Shown one piece after another: positions 227 through 33,766 of a stretch of 33,816 bases of DNA. Under the pieces are notes generated by a model. That model worked only from the letters and a program-made list of their open reading frames with translations. It was not told the DNA's origin and did not search any database. Where the stretch lies: contig CALXDC010000031.1 in assembly GCA_944386975.1 (NCBI GenBank), positions 1 through 33,816 of the forward strand. The letters run 5' to 3'. The position numbers and the translations under genes are program-made. Numbering within the stretch: the first letter of the stretch is position 1; each line of letters begins with the position of its first letter. The stretch comes from an uncultured Oscillospiraceae bacterium. GTDB taxonomy: Bacteria > Bacillota > Clostridia > Oscillospirales > Oscillospiraceae.

Positions 227-1324
227 ATGGACGCGGAGCTTCTTTTGAAAAACGAGGAGCGGGCGGTATTCCGGCTGCGGGAGCTGTACCGCCGCCACGG
301 CTATCTCCCCTATAAGATGAGCAAGTTTGAGGAGTACGACCTGTACGTCCGGAACAAGAGCTTTCTGGTCAGCGACCACATTCTCACCTTTACCGACGTG
401 GACGGGAAGCTGATGGCCCTGAAGCCGGACGTGACCCTGTCCATTCTGAAAAACTCCAACAGCGGCAAGGGGCTGCAGAAGGTCTACTACCACGAGAACG
501 TGTACCGCACCTCCCCCACCTCCCACGGCTACCGGGAGATCATGCAGGCGGGGCTGGAGTGCATCGGCCCCCTGGACGGCTACGCTGTGGGGGAGGTGGT
601 GATGCTGGCCGCCCGGAGCCTGGAGACCATCAGTGAGGAGTATCTCCTGGATCTGAGCCACCTGGGCTTTGTCTCCGGTCTTCTGTCCCCCCTCTCCCTC
701 TCTCAGGAGACGGAGGCGGCCCTTTTGAAGGCCATGGGGGAGAAAAACGTCCCCGCCCTTCAGCAGCTGGGCCGGGAGCAGGGATTGCCGGAGGAGACGG
801 TGGCGGCCCTCAGCCGGCTGGCTCTTCTCTACGCGCCTCCCGCCAAGGCCCTCCCGGTGCTGGAGGAGCTGGCGGTGACGGAGGGGAGCCGGGAGGCCCT
901 TCGGGAGCTCCAGGAGCTCTGGGGTCTTCTGGAGCAGTACGGCCTTGGGGACCGCCTGCGGCTGGACTTCTCCATTGTCAACGACATGAACTACTATAGC
1001 GGCGTCATCTTCCGGGGCTACCTCCCCGGCCTTGCCAGCGGCGTACTGGCAGGAGGCCGGTACGACAACCTCCTTCGGAAAATGGGCCGGGAGGGCGGGG
1101 CCATCGGCTTTGCGGTGTATCTCGACCAGCTGGAGCGCTTCGGCGCCAAGAGCCGGAGCTTCGACGTAGACGTACTGCTGCTCTATGACGGCAGCCGGAC
1201 GCCCGCCGCCGTGGCCGCCGCCGCCAACGCGGTGCTGGCCTCCGGCAAGACGGTGCGGGTGGAGCGGGAGATCCCCGACGGTCTCCAATATCGGGAGCTG
1301 CGGGACATGCGGAAGGAGGCGTAA
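227..1324 (+). CDS. hisZ: ATP phosphoribosyltransferase regulatory subunit HisZ
   Basis: HisZ is a catalytically inactive histidyl-tRNA synthetase paralogue. In the known family it joins the short HisG to form the first enzyme of histidine biosynthesis and gives it histidine feedback control. The 365-residue product shows the class II synthetase-like core: an N-terminal helix with the YLPYK segment, the FxxxDxxGKLMALKPDVTLSI strand region near residues 60-75, a YYHENVYR motif near 88-95 and the late LDFSIVNDMNYYSGVIFRGY-type segment near 245-265. The ATG at 227 follows AGGAGG at 215-220 with ideal spacing. It is the first gene of the operon, three bases before hisG, which is itself the short form that needs HisZ. 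That pairing makes a true histidyl-tRNA synthetase (usually over 400 residues, with an anticodon domain) unlikely. Confidence 0.93.
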   Translation: MDAELLLKNEERAVFRLRELYRRHGYLPYKMSKFEEYDLYVRNKSFLVSDHILTFTDVDGKLMALKPDVTLSILKNSNSGKGLQKVYYHENVYRTSPTSHGYREIMQAGLECIGPLDGYAVGEVVMLAARSLETISEEYLLDLSHLGFVSGLLSPLSLSQETEAALLKAMGEKNVPALQQLGREQGLPEETVAALSRLALLYAPPAKALPVLEELAVTEGSREALRELQELWGLLEQYGLGDRLRLDFSIVNDMNYYSGVIFRGYLPGLASGVLAGGRYDNLLRKMGREGGAIGFAVYLDQLERFGAKSRSFDVDVLLLYDGSRTPAAVAAAANAVLASGKTVRVEREIPDGLQYRELRDMRKEA

Positions 1325-1327
1325 GGG

Positions 1328-1969
1328 ATGGACTTCATCAACATTGCCCTTCCCAAGGGCCGCCTTGGGGAGAAGGTCTACCGCATCTTCAAGGCGGTAG
1401 GCTACGAGTGCCCCTCCATCGAGGAGGAGAACCGGAAGCTGGTGTTTGAAAACCCGGAGCGGGGCGTCCGCTACTTCTGGGTAAAGCCCTCGGACGTAGC
1501 CATCTACGTGGAACGGGGGGCCGCCGACATCGGCGTGGCGGGGAAGGACATCCTGCTGGAGTACGCCCCCGACGTCTACGAGCTGGCAGACCTCGGCATC
1601 GGCAGGTGCCGCATGTGCGTGGCGGGCCGGAAGGACTTCTACGACGAGGGGGGCAGCACCCTCCGGGTGGCCACCAAGTTCCCCCGAATCGCCCGGACCT
1701 ATTACAGCTCCATCAGCCGGGACATCGACATCATCAAGCTCAACGGCTCCATTGAGATCGCCCCCCTCCTGGGCTTAAGCGACGTGATCGTGGACATCGT
1801 GGAGACCGGCCGGACTCTGCTGGAAAACGGCCTGGAGCCCAAGGTGGACATTGTGCCCATCAGCGCCCGGCTCATTGCCAACAAGGTCAGCTATAAATTT
1901 AAGAATGAGCCCATCCGGCAGCTGGTCCAGGCCGTAGGCGCCTGGCAGCCGGAGGAAGGGAAGGAGTAA
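1328..1969 (+). CDS. hisG: ATP phosphoribosyltransferase catalytic subunit, short form HisG
   Basis: HisG condenses ATP and PRPP to phosphoribosyl-ATP, the committed step of histidine synthesis, in the cytoplasm. The product is 213 residues and starts with the typical INIALPKGRLGEKVY segment; DIGVAGKDILLEY and the PRPP-binding stretch around DVIVDIVETGRTLLENGL (about residues 150-170) are clear. It lacks the C-terminal regulatory domain of the roughly 300-residue long form, which fits with hisZ lying directly upstream. The ATG at 1328 is three bases after the hisZ stop and is served by AAGGAGG at 1313-1319, inside the end of hisZ, so the two subunits are probably translated in step. Confidence 0.96.
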   Translation: MDFINIALPKGRLGEKVYRIFKAVGYECPSIEEENRKLVFENPERGVRYFWVKPSDVAIYVERGAADIGVAGKDILLEYAPDVYELADLGIGRCRMCVAGRKDFYDEGGSTLRVATKFPRIARTYYSSISRDIDIIKLNGSIEIAPLLGLSDVIVDIVETGRTLLENGLEPKVDIVPISARLIANKVSYKFKNEPIRQLVQAVGAWQPEEGKE

Positions 1970-1973
1970 GGAT

Positions 1974-3254
1974 ATGATCCGGATTTTACCCTACGGGAAG
2001 GTCTCCCCGGAGGAGATCTTCTCCCGCTGTGAGGCGGCGGCCAATGTGGGCCCCGCCGTGGCGGAGATCATCGCCGCCGTCCGGAAGGATGGAGACGCCG
2101 CCCTCCGGCACTATGCGGAGAAATTTGACAAGGCGGAGCTGAAGGAGATCGAGGTCCCCCAAGAGACGTTGGACGCCGCCGTGGAGGCCCTGGATGGGGA
2201 GCTGCGCCAAATTCTCACTGAGGCGGCGGAGCGCATCCGGAATTTCCACCGCCGCCAGGTCCGCAACAGCTTCGTCATCAGCGAGGAGGAGGGCATCCTT
2301 CTCGGCCAGAAGGTGATCCCCATGGACCGGGTGGGCCTCTACATCCCCGGCGGCACCGCCGCCTACCCCTCCAGCGTCCTCATGAACGCCGTCCCCGCCA
2401 AGATCGCCGGCTGCCGGGAGGTGGTCATGGTGTCGCCCCCCACCTGCAATGGCGACATCCACCCGGTGATCCTGGCCGCTGCCCGGATTGCCGGGGTGGA
2501 CCGGGTGTTCCGCACCGGCGGCGCCCAGGCGGTGGCGGCCCTGGCCTACGGCACCGAGACCATCCCCCGGGTGGACAAGATCGTGGGCCCCGGCAACGCA
2601 TACGTGGCGGAGGCCAAGCGCCAGGTCTTCGGCCAGGTGGCCATCGATATGATCGCCGGTCCCAGCGAGATCCTGGTGGTGGCCGACGGAAAGAGCGACC
2701 CCCGGGTAGTGGCCGCCGACTTGCTCAGCCAGGCGGAGCACGACAGGATGGCCTCCGCCGTCCTGGTCACCGACAGCGCGGAGCTGGCCAAGGCGGTCAG
2801 TGACGAGCTGGAGCGGCAGATTCCTCTCCTGCCCCGCTCCGAGATCGCCCGGGCCTCCATCGACCGCAACGGCAAGATCATCGTGGCGGAGGACCTCACC
2901 GCCGTCATCGACATCGCCAACGAGATCGCCCCGGAGCACTTAGAGCTGTGCCTTGACAACCCCTTTGACTATCTCGATAAAATCCGCCACGCCGGGTCCA
3001 TATTCCTGGGCCGCAGCTGCCCGGAGGCCCTGGGGGACTACTTTGCCGGTCCCAACCACACCCTCCCCACCAGCGGCACCGCCCGGTTCATGAGCCCCCT
3101 CAGCGTGGACGACTTCGTAAAGAAGACCCAGTTCACCTACTACACCCCGGAAGCTCTGGGGAAGGTCAGTGGCAAGATCGCCCGCTTCGCCCGGCAGGAG
3201 GGGCTGGAGGCCCACGCCCGCAGCGTCCTCAGCCGCTTTGACGAGACCATATAG
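1974..3254 (+). CDS. hisD: Histidinol dehydrogenase HisD
   Basis: HisD is the zinc enzyme that makes the last two oxidations, histidinol to histidinal to histidine, using two NAD+. At 426 residues it has the normal length. Family marks are visible: GLYIPGGTAAYPSSVLMNA near residues 121-140, the nucleotide-site segment VGPGNAYVAEAKRQVFG, the zinc-ligand region LLSQAEHD, the catalytic Glu-His pair in ANEIAPEHLEL and the late zinc region GPNHTLPTSG. It starts four bases after hisG. In this operon it sits third although it acts last, an order common in Firmicutes. Confidence 0.97.
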   Translation: MIRILPYGKVSPEEIFSRCEAAANVGPAVAEIIAAVRKDGDAALRHYAEKFDKAELKEIEVPQETLDAAVEALDGELRQILTEAAERIRNFHRRQVRNSFVISEEEGILLGQKVIPMDRVGLYIPGGTAAYPSSVLMNAVPAKIAGCREVVMVSPPTCNGDIHPVILAAARIAGVDRVFRTGGAQAVAALAYGTETIPRVDKIVGPGNAYVAEAKRQVFGQVAIDMIAGPSEILVVADGKSDPRVVAADLLSQAEHDRMASAVLVTDSAELAKAVSDELERQIPLLPRSEIARASIDRNGKIIVAEDLTAVIDIANEIAPEHLELCLDNPFDYLDKIRHAGSIFLGRSCPEALGDYFAGPNHTLPTSGTARFMSPLSVDDFVKKTQFTYYTPEALGKVSGKIARFARQEGLEAHARSVLSRFDETI

Positions 3255-3271
3255 AAAGAAGGCACGCCACC

Positions 3272-4336
3272 ATGAGCAGATTTATGAGCGCACGCTTTGC
3301 CGACCTGGAGGCCTACGTCCCCGGCGAGCAGCCCCAGGACATGCAGTATGTGAAGCTGAACACCAACGAGTCCCCCTTCCCCCCCTCTCCGGAGGTTATT
3401 GCCGCGGTGAACGCCTACGAGGTGGGGCGGCTGAACCTCTACCCCGATCCGGACTGCAAGCGGCTGCGGAAGAAGCTGGCGGACCTCTATGAGGTGGAAG
3501 AGGAGAACGTATTTCTCTCCAACGGCTCCGACGACATCCTGAACTTTGCCTTCATGGCCTTCTGCGACGCCCAGCGTCCCGCGGCCTTCCCGGATATCAG
3601 CTACGGCTTCTACCCTGTCTACGCCAACCTCCACCACGTGCCCGCCACAGTGATTCCCCTTCGGGAGGACTTCCGACTGGAGCCGGAGGACTACTGCGGC
3701 CTCCACCAGAACGTGGTCATTGCCAACCCCAACGCCCCCACGGGCCGCACCATCTCTGTGGCGGACATTGAGAAGATCGTCCAGACCAATCCCGACCACG
3801 TGGTTCTCATCGACGAGGCCTATGTGGACTTCGGGGCGGAGAGCTGCTACCCTCTCATCAGGAAGTACGAAAACCTCCTGGTGTGCATGACCTTCTCCAA
3901 GTCCCGGTCCATGGCCGGAGGCCGCATAGGCTTTGCTCTCGGCAGCAAGGCCCTCATCGAGGACCTCAACAAGATCAAATACTCCACCAACCCCTACAAC
4001 CTCAACCGTCTGACCCTGGTGGCCGCCGAGGCCGCCGTGGACAGCGACGACTACTATAAAAAGAACGCCAAGATCATCGCGGAGAACCGGGCCTACACCG
4101 TGGAGGAGCTGGGGAAGCTGGGCTTCACCACTCTCCCCTCCCAGGCCAACTTCATCTTCACCAGCTGCCCGGGGCTCTCCGGCGGCGACCTCTACCGGGA
4201 GCTGAAGCGCCGGGGCGTGCTGGTGCGCTACTGGAACAAGCCCGCCCTCCAGAATCACGTCCGCATCACCATCGGCTCCAGGGAGCAGATGGACGTGCTG
4301 CTGGAGAAGGTCCGTGAAATTCTCAAGGAGGTGTGA
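3272..4336 (+). CDS. hisC: Histidinol-phosphate aminotransferase HisC
   Basis: HisC is a PLP enzyme that turns imidazole-acetol phosphate plus glutamate into histidinol phosphate. The 354-residue product has the fold-type I pattern: substrate segment VKLNTNESPFPPSP at the N-terminus, SNGSDDILNF for phosphate binding, NPNAPTGR, LIDEAYVDF (the Asp that contacts the PLP ring) and the Schiff-base lysine in TFSKSRSMAGGRIG. It is 17 bases after hisD. Its 3' end carries the ribosome site of hisB. Other class I aminotransferases are similar in sequence, but the operon position settles the assignment. Confidence 0.95.
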   Translation: MSRFMSARFADLEAYVPGEQPQDMQYVKLNTNESPFPPSPEVIAAVNAYEVGRLNLYPDPDCKRLRKKLADLYEVEEENVFLSNGSDDILNFAFMAFCDAQRPAAFPDISYGFYPVYANLHHVPATVIPLREDFRLEPEDYCGLHQNVVIANPNAPTGRTISVADIEKIVQTNPDHVVLIDEAYVDFGAESCYPLIRKYENLLVCMTFSKSRSMAGGRIGFALGSKALIEDLNKIKYSTNPYNLNRLTLVAAEAAVDSDDYYKKNAKIIAENRAYTVEELGKLGFTTLPSQANFIFTSCPGLSGGDLYRELKRRGVLVRYWNKPALQNHVRITIGSREQMDVLLEKVREILKEV

Positions 4337-4338
4337 CC

Positions 4339-4926
4339 ATGCGCTCTGCCCAGATCCAGCGGAAGACCGCCGAGACCGACATCACCCTCTCTCTCACCAT
4401 TGAGGGCACCGGGAAGAGCGACATCGCCACCGGCTGCGGCTTTCTCGACCACATGCTCACCCTCTTCGCCCGCCACGGCCGCTTCGATCTGAATGTCCAC
4501 TGCGACGGCGACACCTACGTGGACGACCACCACACCGTGGAGGACATCGGCATCTGCCTGGGGGACGCCTTCGCCAAGGCTCTCGGCGACCTCCGGGGGG
4601 TAACCCGCTACGGCAGCTGCACCCTCCCCATGGACGAGGCTCTCCTCCTCACCGCCGTGGACCTCTCCGGCCGGGGGATGCTGTGCTGTGACCTCCAGAT
4701 CCCCACAGAGAAGGTAGGGACCTTTGACACGGAGCTGGTGGAGGAGTTCCTCCTGGCCCTGGTTCGCCGGGCCAACATGACCCTCCACGTCCAGCAGCTG
4801 GCGGGGCGAAACAGCCACCACATCATCGAGGGCATATTCAAGAGCCTCGGACGCTCCCTCCGCCAGGCGGCAGCCATTGACCCCGCCTTCGCCCAGGAGA
4901 TCCCCTCCACCAAGGGGGTGCTGTGA
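4339..4926 (+). CDS. hisB: Imidazoleglycerol-phosphate dehydratase HisB
   Basis: HisB dehydrates imidazole-glycerol phosphate to imidazole-acetol phosphate with two Mn ions. The 195-residue product has the duplicated metal-binding motifs: GFLDHML, DDHHTVEDIG and RNSHHIIEGIFKSLGR. It is the single-function form without the N-terminal phosphatase of enteric HisB, so the phosphatase step is left to the PHP gene at the end of the operon. The ATG at 4339 is preferred over the GTG at 4333 because AAGGAGG (4325-4331) would be only one base from the GTG but seven from the ATG. Confidence 0.96.
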   Translation: MRSAQIQRKTAETDITLSLTIEGTGKSDIATGCGFLDHMLTLFARHGRFDLNVHCDGDTYVDDHHTVEDIGICLGDAFAKALGDLRGVTRYGSCTLPMDEALLLTAVDLSGRGMLCCDLQIPTEKVGTFDTELVEEFLLALVRRANMTLHVQQLAGRNSHHIIEGIFKSLGRSLRQAAAIDPAFAQEIPSTKGVL

Positions 4927-5555
4927 TGATCGCCATCGTGGACTACGGGGTGGGGAACCTCTTTTCCCTCACCTGTTCCTTCCGCTCCTTGGGGGCGGAG
5001 GTCACCGTCACCGGGGAAGCGGATATCATCCGCTCCGCCGGAAAGGTGGTGCTCCCCGGGGTGGGGGCCTTCGGCGACGCGGCGGCCCTCCTCCGGAAGA
5101 GCGGCCTCGATCAGGTGGTCATCGAAGAAGCTCACAAGGGCAAGCCCCTTTTAGGCATCTGCCTGGGGATGCAGCTCCTCTTTGACAAGAGTCTTGAGTA
5201 CGGGGAGCACCCGGGCCTGGGTCTCATCCCCGGCCGGGTGGTGAGCATGGAGCCGGTGGTCCCGGCAGGGTACAAGGTACCCCACATCGGCTGGAACGCC
5301 CTCCACTTCCCCAAGAACAAACCTGTCAGCCCCCTCTTCCGCCACATCCGGGAGGGGGACTGCGTCTACTTCGTCCACTCCTACTACGCCACCGACTGTG
5401 ACGGCGACCTCATCGCCACCGCCGAGTACGGCCCGGAGCTGACGGCGGCAGTGGCGCGAGACAATGTCATGGGCACCCAGTTCCACCCGGAAAAAAGCGG
5501 CGCCGTGGGGCTCAACATCCTGCGGGCCTTCTGTGAAATGGAGGATCGGTTATGA
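4926..5555 (+). CDS. hisH: Imidazole glycerol phosphate synthase glutaminase subunit HisH
   Basis: HisH hydrolyses glutamine and passes ammonia through a channel to HisF, which makes imidazole-glycerol phosphate and AICAR. The 209-residue class I amidotransferase shows the opening IVDYGVGNLFSL, GVGAFGDA, the nucleophile elbow GICLGMQLLF with its Cys, and the His and Glu of the triad in GTQFHPEKSG. The ATG at 4926 shares its A with the hisB stop (TGATG), which favours it over the GTG three bases earlier. It is two genes upstream of hisF, its partner subunit. Confidence 0.95.
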   Translation: MIAIVDYGVGNLFSLTCSFRSLGAEVTVTGEADIIRSAGKVVLPGVGAFGDAAALLRKSGLDQVVIEEAHKGKPLLGICLGMQLLFDKSLEYGEHPGLGLIPGRVVSMEPVVPAGYKVPHIGWNALHFPKNKPVSPLFRHIREGDCVYFVHSYYATDCDGDLIATAEYGPELTAAVARDNVMGTQFHPEKSGAVGLNILRAFCEMEDRL

Positions 5556-6271
5556 TCATTTTCCCCGCCATCGACTTAAAGGACGGCAAGGTGGTCCGTC
5601 TCTACAAGGGCGATTTCGCCACGGCCCAGCAGGTGGCCGACGACCCCGTGGCCACCGCCATGGCCTTCCGGGCCGCCGGGGCCACCCACATGCACATGGT
5701 GGACCTGGACGGCGCCAAGGACGGCAAGCGGAAGAACACGGACATCGTAAAGGCCGTGTCCCGGGTGGGGCTCCGCATCCAGCTGGGCGGCGGCATCCGC
5801 ACCATCCAGGACCTGGAGGCCATCTTTGCCATGGGCATCTACCGGGCGGTCATCGGCTCCGCCGCCGTCAGTAACCCGGAGCTGGTCCGCTCCGCCGTGG
5901 CCCACTACGGCGGCGACCGCATTGCCGTGGGCATCGACACCAAGGACGGCCGGGTCCGCACCGCCGGCTGGGTGGAGGACGCCGGCATCGATTACCTGGA
6001 CTTCGCCAAACAGATGGAGGCTCTGGGCGTTCAGAAGCTGATCTTCACCGACATCGACACCGACGGCACCCTCTCCGGCCCCTCCTATGACCGGCTGGCC
6101 GCCCTCCAGGCGGAGGTCAGCTGCGACATCATCGCCTCCGGCGGCATCTCCTGCAACAAGGACATTGTCCGACTCAGCGACATGGGCCTCTACGGGGCCA
6201 TCGTGGGCAAGGCCTGGTACACCGGGGCGGTAGACCTGGAGGACGCCATTCTGGAGGGGGGAGACCAGTGA
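5552..6271 (+). CDS. hisA: Phosphoribosyl-formimino-AICAR phosphate isomerase HisA
   Basis: HisA opens the ribose of ProFAR to give PRFAR, the substrate of HisHF. The 239-residue product is one TIM barrel; the two catalytic Asp residues lie in the opening PAIDLKDGKVVRL and in the half-way repeat FTDIDTDGTLSGP, and the phosphate sites are LGGGIRT and ASGGISC. It overlaps the end of hisH by four bases (ATGA), and hisF overlaps its own end, so hisH, hisA and hisF form a coupled block. Confidence 0.96.
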   Translation: MIIFPAIDLKDGKVVRLYKGDFATAQQVADDPVATAMAFRAAGATHMHMVDLDGAKDGKRKNTDIVKAVSRVGLRIQLGGGIRTIQDLEAIFAMGIYRAVIGSAAVSNPELVRSAVAHYGGDRIAVGIDTKDGRVRTAGWVEDAGIDYLDFAKQMEALGVQKLIFTDIDTDGTLSGPSYDRLAALQAEVSCDIIASGGISCNKDIVRLSDMGLYGAIVGKAWYTGAVDLEDAILEGGDQ

Positions 6272-7026
6272 TCACCAAGCGGATCATTCCCTGTCTCGAT
6301 GTGAAGGACGGCCGGGTGGTGAAGGGGGTCAACTTTCTCGGCCTCAGCGACGTGTCCAGCCCCGTGAAGCTGGCCAGGTTCTATAGCGACTGCGGCGCCG
6401 ACGAGCTGGTGTTCTACGACATCACCGCCTCCGCCGAGGGCCGCGCCCTCTTCACCGACATTCTCACTGAGGTGGCCTCCACCATCTTCATCCCCCTCAC
6501 CGTGGGGGGCGGCATCAACACCGTGGACGACTTTGACCGGGTCCTCAAATGCGGCGCCGACAAGGTCAGCGTCAACTCCGGGGCCATCCGGGACCCCTCC
6601 CTCATCGCCGCCGCCGCCCAGCGCTACGGGGACCAGTGCGTGGTTCTCAGCGTGGACGCCAAGCGGGTGGACGGCCAGTTCCGGGTCTTTGCCAAGGGCG
6701 GCCGGGAGGACACGGGCCTGGACGCTATCGAGTGGATCAAGAAGGGCGTTCAGAACGGCGCCGGGGAGATCGTCCTCAACAGCATCGACACCGACGGGGT
6801 AAAGAAGGGCTTTGACCTTGAAATGCTCTCCGCCGTCTGCGACGCGGTGAACGTGCCGGTGATCGCCTCCGGCGGCGCCGGGTGCATCGAGGATTTTGTC
6901 ACCCTTTTTGAGACCCTTCCCAAGGTGGACGCAGGCCTCGCCGCCTCCATCTTCCACTTCGGCGAGGTCCAGATTCCCGACCTGAAACGCGCCCTGGCGG
7001 ACCGGGGCATCATTATGCGCGTATAA
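6268..7026 (+). CDS. hisF: Imidazole glycerol phosphate synthase cyclase subunit HisF
   Basis: HisF is the TIM-barrel cyclase that joins HisH-derived ammonia with PRFAR to form imidazole-glycerol phosphate and AICAR. The 252-residue product has the two Asp motifs, IIPCLDVKDGRVVKGVNF at the start and NSIDTDGVKKGFD in the second half, and phosphate-binding VGGGI and ASGGAG loops. It begins with GTG at 6268, overlapping the hisA stop as GTGA. It is a paralogue of HisA next door; the Cys in PCLDVKDG and the VNF segment mark it as HisF. Confidence 0.96.
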   Translation: MITKRIIPCLDVKDGRVVKGVNFLGLSDVSSPVKLARFYSDCGADELVFYDITASAEGRALFTDILTEVASTIFIPLTVGGGINTVDDFDRVLKCGADKVSVNSGAIRDPSLIAAAAQRYGDQCVVLSVDAKRVDGQFRVFAKGGREDTGLDAIEWIKKGVQNGAGEIVLNSIDTDGVKKGFDLEMLSAVCDAVNVPVIASGGAGCIEDFVTLFETLPKVDAGLAASIFHFGEVQIPDLKRALADRGIIMRV

Positions 7027-7038
7027 AGGAGAACGACT

Positions 7039-7689
7039 ATGCTTTCCATTGACGATCTGAAATTCAACGGCCACGGCCTCATCCCCGCCATCGTGGTGGA
7101 CGCGGCCACCAAGGAGGTGCTGACTCTCGCCTACATGAACCGGGAGAGCCTGGAGATCACCATGAAGGAGGGCCGCACCTGCTTCTGGTCCCGGTCCCGG
7201 CAGGAGCTGTGGCGGAAGGGAGAGACCAGCGGCAACATCCAGTACGTGGTGGACATCACCGCCGACTGCGACCGGGACGCCCTGGTGATCCGGGTGAACA
7301 AGACCGGCCCCGCCTGCCATTTGGGCACCGCCTCCTGTTTCAATGACAAGATCTTTGTCGGTGAGTCCCCGGAGCCCTTCTCCGTCAAGGGCCTCTACGG
7401 CCTCCTGGAGGGCCGGAAGCGGGATCTCCCCGAGGGGTCCTACACCACCTATCTCTTTCAGAAGGGACTGGACAAGATTCTCAAGAAGGTGGGCGAGGAA
7501 TCCACCGAGGTCATCATCGCCGGCAAGGCAGAGGACAAGGCGGAGACCATCTATGAGATCGCGGACCTCATGTACCATGTGATGGTGCTGATGGTGGAAA
7601 TGGGCATCAGCGTGGATGACATCCTGGCGGAGCTGGCCAGCCGCCACGTCATCGACCACAAGGTGAAGCAGGAGAAGATGACCAAATGA
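7039..7689 (+). CDS. hisI: Bifunctional phosphoribosyl-AMP cyclohydrolase / phosphoribosyl-ATP pyrophosphatase HisIE
   Basis: This fused enzyme does steps two and three of the pathway. Residues 1 to about 115 are the HisI cyclohydrolase: [24 protein letters not shown], and the metal-binding stretch [11 protein letters not shown] followed by [10 protein letters not shown]. From about residue 120 the HisE pyrophosphatase follows, an all-helical MazG-like domain with [16 protein letters not shown] and the acidic metal site [17 protein letters not shown]. The total of 216 residues is normal for the fusion. It starts 12 bases after hisF with AAGGAGA in front. Confidence 0.95.
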
Positions 7690-8504
7690 AACCTCAGACC
7701 CTCCACTGCCACACCGCCCTCTGCGACGGGAAACACACCCCGGCGGAGATGGCGGCGGCGGCCTTTGCCGCGGGCTGCGGGGCCATCGGCTTCTCCGGCC
7801 ACGCGCCGCTCCCCGACGGGGACGACTGGTGCATGCCGGCGGTGTCGGTGCCGGTATACCGCCAGGCGGTGCTGGACCTCCGGGAGCGATATCGCGGTCA
7901 AATGGACGTGTTTCTCGGTCTGGAGCAGGACTACTTCTCCCCTCCCGCCGGGGAGGGCTGGGACTACCTCATCGGCTCCGTCCACTGCGTGGTGAAGGAC
8001 GGGATGGTTCTCACGGTAGACGAGAGCGAAGCCGCTTTTTTGAAAGCCGTCCGGGACTGTTACGGAGGGAACTTTTACGCCTTCGCCCGGGACTATTTTC
8101 GTCTGGAAGCGGAGGTGGTCAAGACCACCGGCTGCCAGATCGTGGGCCATTTTGATCTTTTCACCAAGTTCAACGAGGGAAATCGCCTCTTTGACACCAC
8201 GGATCCCCGGTACCTGGGCCCGGCCATGGAGGCCCTGGACGCCCTTCTGGAGGAGGACGTACTCTTTGAGATCAACACCGGGGCCATATCCCGGGGCTAC
8301 CGCACCACCCCCTACCCCGCCCCGGTGTTCCTCCGGCGGATTCGGGAAAAGGGAGGCCGGGTGGCCGTCACCAGCGACAGCCACAGCGCAGACTCCCTGC
8401 TGTTCGCCTATCCCCAGGCCTTTGCCCTGGCGGCGGAATGCGGATTTACCTCCACGGTGTACCGCACCCAGTCGGGCTTTACTGATGTTCCCCTCCCTCT
8501 ATAG
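7686..8504 (+). CDS. hisJ: PHP-family histidinol-phosphatase
   Basis: The product removes phosphate from histidinol phosphate, the step missing from the single-domain HisB of this operon. The 272-residue PHP-domain protein carries the metal-binding motifs in order: [10 protein letters not shown] at residues 3-12, [33 protein letters not shown] and TSDSHS. It overlaps hisIE by four bases (ATGA) and is the last gene, followed at once by a terminator. The family is called HisJ in Bacillus and HisK in Lactococcus; either name describes the same activity. Confidence 0.9.
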
Positions 8505-31775: not shown

Positions 31776-31818
31776 CGCCGCCCTTCTCCCGTTTCTCCCC
31801 GGACAGGGCGGCAAGATG

Positions 31819-31861
31819 ACAAAACGGCCTCCGGCGCTATATGCGCCGGAGGCCGTTTTGT
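31819..31861. terminator. Bidirectional terminator between the M56 gene and the radical SAM gene
   Basis: A perfect 19-base-pair stem, ACAAAACGGCCTCCGGCGC with its complement, around TATAT. It lies between two convergent genes (ends at 31775 and 31881) and can serve both. Confidence 0.85.
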
Positions 31862-31880
31862 CTTTCACATAGCAAAAACC

Positions 31881-32918
31881 TTAGTCCCTGCCAGAAGCGG
31901 TCCTGTTCCGCGCGCAGGCGGAGGACTCGTACAACTTTCCGTGGGTAAAATAGTTGTAGGACCGGCAGCCTCCGGCGCAGAGAGAGCCGTAGGGACAGCT
32001 CCGGCACGGCCCTGTCAGGAGGTCCGGGGTAAACCGGCGGTTGTAGGCGAAGGCGTTCTCGTCGTACCAGATATCCGCCAGACGTCTGGTGCGGAGATTC
32101 CCCTCGATAAAGCGGTCGTCATACATGGACTCACAGCCCCGCACATTTCCCACGCTGTCGATGCCGACGGTGGTCAGTCCGGCGCGGCAGCCGCCGAAGA
32201 CGGCCTCTCCGCTGAGATCCCCCCGCAGCCAGCCCTCCCGTTGGGTGAAGTAGCCGATATTGTCCGCAATTCCCAGGGAGAAGGGGGCCTCGAACATGTG
32301 GGCCTCCACAAATCGGATCACCGCCTTCGCGTCAAAGCGGTACCGGACGCCTGAGGTTGCGGCGTTTCCCATGGGGGAGCAGGCCTGAATCTGCCACGCG
32401 AACAGGGGCCGCTCCCGCAGGAAGGCGTATAGCTCCTCCAGAAGCGGGGCGTTTTCGCTGTGCAGCGTTGTGATGACGGAGACGGGGATTCCCCCGCCGG
32501 AGAGGGCGTCGAGGGCGGCGGCGGCCCGGTCGAAGCTGCCCGGCTGGCGGTAGGCGTCGTGAACGGCCCGGGGGCCATCCATAGAGACGGCCACAGATTC
32601 GATCTCCGCCCCCCGCAGCCGCTCCAGCAGCTCCGGCGTAAACAGAAACCCGTTGGTGATGAGAGTGGTGCGGATGCCGCGGCCTGTCAGGGCCCGGACA
32701 ATTGTCTCCCAATCCGGGCGGAGAAACACCTCTCCGCCGATGAGAGAAACTCTGCGGCAGCCCAGCGCGGCCAGCTGCGCGGCCACGTCCAGGCACTCGG
32801 CGGTGGTGAGCTCATGTGCCCTGGCCCGGCCGCCCTTCGACCCGCAGTACCGGCAGGAAAAGCAGCAGGCCAGCGTGATCTCCCACACGCAGGACTGCAG
32901 GCGGTATTCGGTCCTCAC
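31881..32918 (-). CDS. Radical SAM/SPASM peptide-modifying enzyme
   Basis: A 345-residue radical SAM protein with a C-terminal SPASM domain, of the type that modifies ribosomal peptides. The radical SAM cluster motif is C18-x3-C22-x2-C25 (CCFSCRYC), followed by SLIGGEVFLRPDW as the SAM-binding GGE motif and ITNGFLF. The SPASM part begins near residue 235 (FGGCRAGLTTVGIDSVGNV, RGCES) and ends with CRSCPYGSLCAGGC and a last Cys in SSACARN, enough Cys for two auxiliary iron-sulfur clusters. Translation starts at GTG 32918, overlapping the stop of the peptide gene by four bases (GTGA). No obvious peptide-binding (RRE/PqqD-like) domain is seen at the N-terminus. The reaction, for example a thioether or carbon-carbon crosslink, cannot be told from sequence. 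Confidence 0.9.
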   Translation of the reverse strand: MRTEYRLQSCVWEITLACCFSCRYCGSKGGRARAHELTTAECLDVAAQLAALGCRRVSLIGGEVFLRPDWETIVRALTGRGIRTTLITNGFLFTPELLERLRGAEIESVAVSMDGPRAVHDAYRQPGSFDRAAAALDALSGGGIPVSVITTLHSENAPLLEELYAFLRERPLFAWQIQACSPMGNAATSGVRYRFDAKAVIRFVEAHMFEAPFSLGIADNIGYFTQREGWLRGDLSGEAVFGGCRAGLTTVGIDSVGNVRGCESMYDDRFIEGNLRTRRLADIWYDENAFAYNRRFTPDLLTGPCRSCPYGSLCAGGCRSYNYFTHGKLYESSACARNRTASGRD

Positions 32919-33223
32919 GGCTTCTTTCTCCCGCCGAACAGGCGCGCAAGCAGCCCCTTCTTGGGCTGAGACGGCGCCGCATACCGCTGCGGATAGGCGC
33001 CCCCGGCCATCCGGACCCTTTCAGAAACAGGGGGTGGTCCGGCGTAGACGCAGCCCATGGGAGGCTCCCGGGAAGGCGGCGGAACCTCGCCGCTCCGCTC
33101 CTCTCTGCCGCCGAAGCGCTCGGGACCGGCATAGACGCAGGCCATCGGTGGTTCCTCCCTGTCGCGCCAACCGGCTTGCGCCGGCTGCTCCGGTAAACGG
33201 CGGGACGTTTCCTGATCCTTCAT
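32915..33223 (-). CDS. Putative RiPP precursor with two PPMxCVYAGP repeats
   Basis: A 102-residue basic, Pro-, Arg- and Gly-rich peptide. Two copies of a motif stand out: EPPMACVYAGP at residues 24-34 and EPPMGCVYAGP at 53-63, giving the only two Cys (C29, C58), each in Cys-Val-Tyr. A looser echo, GGAYPQRYAAP, is at 74-84. The end is a short amphipathic basic tail, KKGLLARLFGGRKKP. Third codon positions differ between the copies at most sites while the residues stay the same, so the motif itself seems selected. AAAGGAG lies before the ATG at 33223, and the stop overlaps the GTG of the radical SAM gene, a coupling typical of precursor and maturase. There is no signal peptide or double-glycine leader. 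I do not recognise a named family; the precursor role is inferred. Confidence 0.75.
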   Translation of the reverse strand: MKDQETSRRLPEQPAQAGWRDREEPPMACVYAGPERFGGREERSGEVPPPSREPPMGCVYAGPPPVSERVRMAGGAYPQRYAAPSQPKKGLLARLFGGRKKP

Positions 33224-33250
33224 ATCCGTCTCTCCTTTCCCTGTTCTCCT

Positions 33251-33264
33251 CTATCGGATGATAG
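33251..33264 (-). promoter_or_regulatory. Inverted repeat over the start of the peptide/radical SAM operon
   Basis: CTATC-GGAT-GATAG is a perfect inverted repeat just downstream of the -10 box. Its arms equal the core of BlaI-type operator 1 (CTATC-CAT-GATAG) with one more base in the middle. Confidence 0.4.
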
Positions 33265-33268
33265 GTTC

Positions 33269-33297
33269 AGCATACTATATCCGGCGGCCGGAATCAA
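33269..33297 (-). promoter_or_regulatory. Promoter of the peptide/radical SAM operon
   Basis: On the minus strand TTGATT (33297-33292) and TATGCT (33274-33269) are 17 bases apart. The predicted start is near 33262, about 39 bases before the peptide start codon. Confidence 0.6.
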
Positions 33298-33340
33298 GCA
33301 AGCCGGAATATTTTCATGCAAATCATGCGGCATTCCGAAA

Positions 33341-33576
33341 CCGGGCCCCCGCACAGCGGGGCGGCGCTTTTGCAACCTACAAGCGTTTTGCCGCAGGCAA
33401 AACCTCGGCGGAGGCGGAATTCACTGCGCAGCCGTTGGCGGCTTTGTCGCCTTACGGATGCGGCGTACCCCTTGCGGGTGCTTCCGCCGAGCATTTGAAA
33501 TTCCCCAGGAATCCAAAAAAGAAGCACCTGCAAAGTAGGTGCTTCTTTTTTGTCTTGTCCGCAAAGTATAGATGCC
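33341..33576. repeat. Intergenic repeat, copy A
   Basis: It starts CCGGGCCCCCGCACAGCGGG, then holds GTTTTGCCGCAGGCAAAACCTCGGCG, AGGCGGAATTCA, TCCGCCGAGCATTT, CCCCAGGAATCCAAAAAA, a terminator-like hairpin and GTCTTGTCCGCAAAGTATAG, ending GATGCC. Copy B has the same blocks in the same order. Copy A has about 60 extra bases near 33424-33486. Open frames run through both strands but look like GC-rich chance frames. Confidence 0.7.
33515..33551. terminator. Terminator-like hairpin in repeat copy A
   Basis: AAAAAAGAAGCACCTGC pairs with GTAGGTGCTTCTTTTTT (one G-U) around a three-base loop; A- and T-runs make it bidirectional. Confidence 0.6.
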
Positions 33577-33584
33577 GGACAAGA

Positions 33585-33766
33585 CCGGGACCCCGCACGG
33601 CGGGGCGGCGCGTTTGCGCCGTACGAGTGTTTTGGCCGCAGGCCAAAACCTCGGCGCAGGCGGAATTCATTTCCGCCGAGCATTTTAAAATCCCCAGGTA
33701 TCCAAAAAGAAACACCAGCCTGTCGGCTGGTGTTTCTTTTTGTCTTGTACGTAAGGTATAGATGCC
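33585..33766. repeat. Intergenic repeat, copy B
   Basis: Second, shorter copy of the element at 33341: CCGGGACCCCGCACGGCGGG, GTTTTGGCCGCAGGCCAAAAC, AGGCGGAATTCA, TTTCCGCCGAGCATTTTA, CCCCAGGTATCCAAAAA, a hairpin with a different stem, then GTCTTGTACGTAAGGTATAG and GATGCC. The hairpin stem sequence differs from copy A while keeping its position. Confidence 0.7.
33704..33741. terminator. Terminator-like hairpin in repeat copy B
   Basis: A perfect 17-base-pair stem, AAAAAGAAACACCAGCC with its complement, around TGTC, flanked by A- and T-runs. Confidence 0.6.

Follow-up and report, generated by a model that had tools for sequence, protein, structure and literature searches.

The minus strand of the DNA analyzed here carries a two-gene operon in which the gene for a 102-amino acid partner protein precedes that for a 345-amino acid radical SAM/SPASM enzyme. 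Sequence comparisons make it reasonably probable that this enzyme is a peptide maturase of the wider PlpX-like splicease group, which splices its upstream substrate at the tyrosines of Val-Tyr-Ala-(Gly/Ala/Pro)-Pro sites. The operon comes from an uncultured Oscillospiraceae bacterium (GCA_944386975.1, contig CALXDC010000031.1, positions 1-33,816), and we refer to this whole stretch of 33,816 nucleotides as the window. If the proposal is true, anaerobic bacteria of the gut and rumen alter the backbone of proteins of their own at many encoded positions, using one small enzyme and neither leader nor helper.

The partner gene (32915..33223, minus strand) encodes the putative substrate, which has two or three Tyr-Ala-x-Pro sites, a basic amphipathic tail and no recognisable leader. 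It overlaps by four bases (GTGA, 32915..32918, minus strand) the enzyme gene, which has a GTG start (31881..32918, minus strand). The arrangement suggests translational coupling, and the same -4 overlap is found in 18 of 41 loci with the chosen starts. The peptide gene, the overlap, the two PPMxCVYAGP motifs 29 residues apart and an enzyme with CxxxCxxC and a SPASM end had all been noticed in a preliminary description of this DNA, and all of them hold. The same description gave the peptide gene its own promoter, which a sigma-70 scan of the operon did not find; AGGAG stands 5' of the ATG of the partner gene. It also reported a strong terminator. A perfect 20-bp inverted repeat (31818..31862, assigned to neither strand; fold -44.4 kcal/mol, z -8.4) is indeed present and probably serves as a bidirectional terminator for the operon and the gene that converges on it. 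The repeat falls slightly beyond the interval first described, is common to both transcription units, and was not listed by a simple terminator scan, which returned only chance-level sites.

Site 1 of the partner protein is V30-Y31-A32-G33-P34 within PPMACVYAGP (33122..33136, minus strand; the cysteine is C29), and site 2 is V59-Y60-A61-G62-P63 within PPMGCVYAGP (33035..33049, minus strand; C58). Both follow from the sequence and from the motif statistics on 138 copies given below. The two-site product initially proposed accounts for both, but overlooks a possible third site, R80-Y81-A82-A83-P84 (32972..32986, minus strand), which comparison with relatives brings out. It stands directly before the basic tail, in a position that matches VYASPP, VYAAPP and IYASPP in the partners of L011, L012 and L005. 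Arginine before the tyrosine occurs here alone among 139 sites of 41 partners, so that site 3 may be degenerate. The basic amphipathic tail itself is KKGLLARLFGGRKKP (32918..32962, minus strand); by a loose pattern, 'LFGKK'-like basic modules are present at either end of 13 of the 41 partners. The 102-amino acid protein matches no Pfam or NCBIfam family, leader families included. Within its own genome the CVYAGP pattern is found only at the two sites of this protein, and single VYA[G/A]P-coding strings elsewhere occur at about the rate of a reversed control pattern.

The genome of the window has one copy of the system, and the partner protein has no match in the other 10 genomes searched of its genus. 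At E <= 1e-60 the enzyme is found in 7 out of 400 genomes from the taxonomic family, one of which (G121, 35% identity) falls outside the enzyme family as defined here, and in 6 out of 394 genomes of the order (E <= 1e-40). A pattern-based scan of species genomes returned 43 loci; 39 of them are near full length and belong to the enzyme family with 59-74% identity. According to their titles, these 39 derive mostly from Clostridia in rumen and gut samples, and two are labelled Actinomycetota (L036, L047). The non-redundant set used for all counts likewise comprises 43 loci, namely the window, L005, the 39 from the scan, L054 and L057. L006, L007, L008, L009, L055 and L056 were removed as repeats of L032, L052, L045, L051, L025 and L023, on the grounds that partner or enzyme text, and lengths, were the same. 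Also excluded were L050, which is partial, and L053, at 29% identity; L089, L091 and L094 are represented in the tree but are not counted among the 43 loci.

A partner protein lies directly upstream of the enzyme in 41 of these 43 loci. The view of a minimal enzyme-plus-substrate operon with repeated sites, lacking exporter and protease, thus extends from the window to the whole family. Two findings had been named in advance as speaking against it. Enzymes without an adjacent peptide occur at two loci (L034 and L043), and motifs within large unrelated proteins are confined to a minority, an FMN reductase (L021) and perhaps a kinase-FHA protein (L031), both still directly beside the enzyme. Among 298 neighbouring ORFs (at least 60 amino acids, up to 7 kb away where the often short contigs allow), no family is present in more than four of the 43 loci, and no exporter, protease, helper or PlpY-like gene recurs. 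Phage or viral carriage was rejected, as 37 pattern-matching stretches in viral contigs included no relative and the three phage matches were weak and partial. At L036 an in-frame TGA (5073-5075) falls exactly at the third cysteine of CxxxCxxC in an otherwise open enzyme frame, which may reflect recoding (selenocysteine), mutation or an assembly error. At L091 the enzyme lies between two motif proteins, one of 231 amino acids before it and a zinc-ribbon-like one of 101 amino acids after it.

The 41 partners contain 138 copies of [V/A/I/L/T]-Y-[A/G]-[G/A/P]-P, from 1 to 10 per protein, while shuffling each partner yields 1.3 copies in total. The search admitted few residues at -1, +1 and +2 relative to the tyrosine, and allowing any residue at -1 adds a single site (139). 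Within these limits, position -1 is Val in 119 copies, position +1 is Ala in 126 and Gly in 9, and position +2 is Gly in 114. Position +3 is Pro in all 138, although the search pattern also permitted Ala; position +4 is Glu or Asp in 83, and +5 and +6 are often aromatic or Met. The constant core of the sites is Tyr-(Ala)-x-Pro. Cys precedes Val at position -2 in 21 of the 138 copies, spread over 17 of the 41 partners and usually one copy in each. By loose pattern, 25 of the 41 partners also have zinc-ribbon-like pairs, and 28 have a YPx[N/S/K] motif; the start of the L036 partner was mis-picked (22 amino acids), which affects the lengths and the zinc-ribbon count.

To place the enzyme, we relied on family profiles, a tree and shared residues. 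Pfam recognizes Radical_SAM (6.5e-26) and SPASM (1.9e-6) domains, with the cluster site at C18-C22-C25 and SPASM cysteines at 244, 262, 305, 308, 314, 318 and 335. Among NCBIfam profiles, TIGR04103 (nif11-class maturase 3), which we take to be the same as IPR026482, ranks first (3e-65, 220.4 bits), followed by TIGR03913 (GDL peptides; 2e-61, 208 bits). Lower matches are heme b synthase in third place (6e-37), MftC (2.4e-36) and StsB (1.8e-31). The window enzyme has the CxxxCxxC and SPASM features of TIGR04103 but scores below the curated cut-offs of both leading profiles (for TIGR04103, 725 bits), and no match above the TIGR04103 cut-off was found in 291 genomes of the class. The earlier remark that no named family is recognizable is therefore strictly right, although the family closest to the enzyme has been named before. 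Across 35 family enzymes the best E-values are 8e-83 for TIGR04103 and 4e-69 for TIGR03913, against 5e-45 for the next profile. It is this margin that counts, because many SPASM profiles match all 35.

A tree with 64 rows groups all 46 rows of the family in one clade (support 100/100), and this clade together with 12 rows of relatives is separated from six outgroup rows with support 100/98. The outgroup consists of two MftC, TIGR04053, TIGR04347 and two unnamed enzymes, without AhbD, NirJ, PqqE or StsB. The tree is to be read with its few outgroups, its long branches (about which the program warned) and the absence of a true PlpX sequence in mind. Only the second L049 enzyme was entered; the first L049 enzyme and both L048 enzymes were left out. 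From 197 plasmid records with a match 11 were taken, as relatives (H1, H2, H3, H5, H7) or outgroups (H8, H11, H16, H18, H24, H25). Against the six-row outgroup, the family shares both a clade and a set of residues with the wider splicease-like group (TIGR04103, TIGR03913 and their kin). W175, Q176, Q178, M183, N185, I221, G222, G252, G261 and S264 are conserved in the family and its relatives, and each is present in at most one of the six outgroup rows. By sequence, the family is thus nearest, among the radical SAM groups sampled, to TIGR04103 (PlpX-type), TIGR03913 and enzymes partnered with X-Tyr-Gly/Ala proteins. An AlphaFold model of the enzyme (pLDDT 88.7) matches the folds of SkfB, PqqE and SuiB, which would suit any peptide-modifying SPASM enzyme and so leaves the chemistry undecided.

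The proteins next to the related enzymes point in the same direction. Ten of the 13 relatives read that do not belong to the family (L010, L048, L049, L088, L090, L092, L093, L095 and L097-L101) have an adjacent X-Tyr-Gly/Ala protein, and no adjacent XYG protein was found for L088, L090 and L101. A Nostoc relative, whose enzyme is annotated as TIGR04103, accompanies a Nif11 peptide with ALYGLPP and has a 71-amino acid gene behind the enzyme. Clostridia relatives have peptides with RPLYGIEP, archaeal ones SYYG, HYG and FYG, and an Agathobacter relative PVMYGTG. DUF1843 peptides bear LYGG, PYGV, VLYAA, PMYAA or PYGA, and one of the six (the third at L099) has MYM at the site position. A 274-amino acid protein beside a related enzyme (L092:467-1288) has ten Tyr-Gly sites (KYGVP-like), several of the form C-x-[LV]-[KE]-Y-G-[VIA]-P. 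Adjoining a splicease-type enzyme at L010 (2554-3501) is a protein with SLH-like repeats, recognized by eye, that ends in NYAVPPYGVPCCCDDYSLPAYGFPDCCCDDVAMPEYGFP with YGVP/YGFP; it is possibly an edited surface protein. Tyr is followed by Gly or Ala in 37 of 68 cases in 16 proteins of relatives, a set chosen for the motif, and in 0 of 8 cases in seven partners of five outgroup enzymes.

The chemistry that we propose draws on the splicease of Pleurocapsa. In the literature, PlpX/PlpY, which produces spliceotides, is assigned to IPR026482 (PMC11002830), and PlpX is described as excising tyramine at X-Tyr-Gly without requiring a leader (PMC10533398, PMC11002830). Kinship to PlpX-type enzymes, taken together with this reaction, suggests backbone splicing at Val-Tyr-Ala rather than cysteine crosslinking. 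The enzyme would act on the tyrosine of each Val-Tyr-Ala-(Gly/Ala/Pro)-Pro site of the upstream protein, cut out a tyramine equivalent (C8H9NO, about 135.07 Da) and close the chain again, so that a Val-derived alpha-keto-beta-amino acid, that is, a ketoamide in the backbone, remains. In the window partner the edited residues would be Y31, Y60 and perhaps Y81. Recognition may rely on the motif and on accessory modules, such as the basic tail or a zinc ribbon, rather than on a leader. Ten-residue tags can suffice for a splicease (PMC10533398, PMC11002830, PMC10373908), but most of the positions at which a tag was tested in FtsZ were not accepted by PlpXY (PMC10533398), so that the motif alone need not be sufficient. 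A point against the proposal is that the window sites are Tyr-Ala whereas those of the characterised PlpX are Tyr-Gly, and the YA sites of relatives (DUF1843) are only putative splice sites. Cys180, present in every one of the 35 aligned enzymes of the family, did not qualify as a residue common to the relatives, and the reaction could therefore differ from that of PlpX. Splicing centred on tyrosine would be missed by a search for losses of 2 or 4 Da, as originally suggested, and the mass test would become a loss of 135 Da per site.

Such a difference would suit an enzyme that modifies the tyrosine or its neighbour without excision, through a Val-Tyr C-C linkage as in mycofactocin MftC or through epimerisation of Val or Tyr with Cys180 as hydrogen donor. 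The predominance of Val before Tyr agrees with this reading, since MftA ends in Val-Tyr, as do the MftC profile match and the invariance of Cys180 in the family, where it is not among the residues shared with the relatives. MftC is likewise a radical SAM/SPASM enzyme with a Val-Tyr target. Yet it works with a neighbouring mftB on a C-terminal core, while the sites here are internal and no such neighbour recurs, and in the tree it lies outside the clade of the family and its relatives; tree placement and internal sites led us to reject a mycofactocin-like identity. In the relatives the residue before Tyr is Leu, Met, Lys, Pro, Glu, Phe, His or Tyr, and because of this variety Val is not the common element. 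Overall, modification without excision seems unlikely, with about one chance in several. The partner might instead serve for binding or targeting, with repeats that bring the enzyme to a different substrate, as could be suggested by their position in long, variable linkers that adjoin zinc ribbons and amphipathic tails. We regard this as improbable, given that the adjacent Tyr-Gly peptides of the PlpX system are substrates according to two reports (PMC10533398, PMC11002830) and that the motif is centred on Tyr in the ten relatives showing one.

The preliminary description favoured a thioether or other crosslink at Cys-Val-Tyr, as in sactipeptides and ranthipeptides. Their synthases are also radical SAM/SPASM enzymes encoded beside short peptides, here a Cys-bearing one, and Cys at -2 is in fact enriched (21/138, compared with a background of 65/6965). 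These synthases need Cys donors, however, and 117 of the 138 sites have no Cys, in loci whose enzymes are 59-74% identical; the window partner is the only one of the 41 with Cys at every matched copy, and the StsB profile is far weaker than the leading ones. Cys-Val-Tyr as the reacting unit was accordingly rejected for lack of Cys at most sites, and we give the crosslink only a slim chance. Slimmer still is that of a three-residue cyclophane (aromatic-x-x) beginning at the tyrosine, which a radical SAM/SPASM enzyme with a repeated short aromatic motif might bring to mind. The third residue of such a crosslink needs a beta carbon, and we rejected it because Gly occupies +2 in 114 of 138 sites.

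Splicing at tyrosine remains our preferred reading, and spliceases in general are known and widespread. The window system resembles PlpX/PlpY in its radical SAM/SPASM enzyme, in a partner with sites of Tyr and a small residue, several of which are possible per substrate, and in signature residues common to the group, including the TIGR04103-annotated Nostoc enzyme. It differs in having Tyr-Ala-Gly-Pro instead of Tyr-Gly (Gly at +1 in only 9 of 138 sites family-wide), in the absence of a Nif11/NHLP leader from the window protein, and in that no PlpY/RRE-like gene recurs among neighbouring ORFs of at least 60 amino acids. GDL-motif/DUF1843 systems (TIGR03913) are similar in giving the second-best profile and in sites that include Tyr-Ala (VLYAA, PMYAA), but have very small peptides (56-64 amino acids), tandem genes, and enzymes of 474 and 516 amino acids in the two read. 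We found no paper joining VYAGP with radical SAM and RiPP, and papers containing at least one of four motif strings seem, from their titles and the opening of their abstracts, to deal with other subjects. Nor did a Tyr-Ala subfamily without leader or helper, carried by modular proteins, appear in the literature searched, which excluded the main splicease survey (Scott 2022, Chem); an earlier description is possible. That survey (Scott et al. 2022) reportedly covers spliceases under a title ending in 'peptides and proteins'.

The partners of the family are modular. A Pfam scan of 10 of the 41 identified zinc ribbons in five (L013, L018, L023, L042 and L046, with L018 just below the cut-off), a kinase and FHA domain in L031 and an NADPH-dependent FMN reductase in L021, and no match in L005, L011 and L047. 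Homologues of the L021 partner are present in 76 out of 196 genomes in a search of the class, and every match listed ends by residue 227 of 364; since its VYAGP sites are at residues 269 and 295, the segment carrying them has been added onto a common flavoprotein. The L031 partner has homologues in 11 of the 196 genomes and a single VYAAP at 297-301. Most of its matches listed end by 290, and one, of 27% identity, reaches 301. It is the weaker case of a carrier, as single VYAGP strings occur at the control rate in the window's own genome. Carriers such as zinc ribbons, a flavoprotein tail and perhaps a kinase-FHA protein make protein editing likelier than a small exported natural product, and after editing the product probably remains an intracellular protein. 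More speculatively, and with clearly less than even confidence, this leaderless two-gene system may use Val-Tyr-Ala-Gly-Pro as a natural portable tag, in many cases added several times over, on resident proteins, whose backbone would be rewritten into electrophilic ketoamides at up to 10 positions. This would amount to programmed protein editing with Tyr-Ala as a new recognition code. If true, tyrosine splicing would extend to Tyr-Ala and provide a compact means of introducing ketoamides into proteins. Spliceotide products inhibit proteases, according to a review and a paper (one of them PMC10373908).

Several features of the surroundings were also recorded. At L108 (10073-13943), genes for WXG100, DUF6382-FHA and PP2C proteins come after the L005 pair and together resemble a type VII secretion set. 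A general link to type VII secretion was dropped, as five of the six neighbours of L031 have no Pfam match, the sixth has WG repeats only, and no such gene recurs. In the window, a duplicated intergenic block (33340-33766) contains direct repeats of 51, 38, 30 and 26 nucleotides that are 84-96% identical, and two perfect hairpins followed by T runs. Farther away, at positions 227-8504, visual inspection of the ORF list indicates a histidine operon that looks complete, made up of hisZ, G, D, C, B, H, A, F and IE together with a gene resembling that for histidinol-phosphatase.
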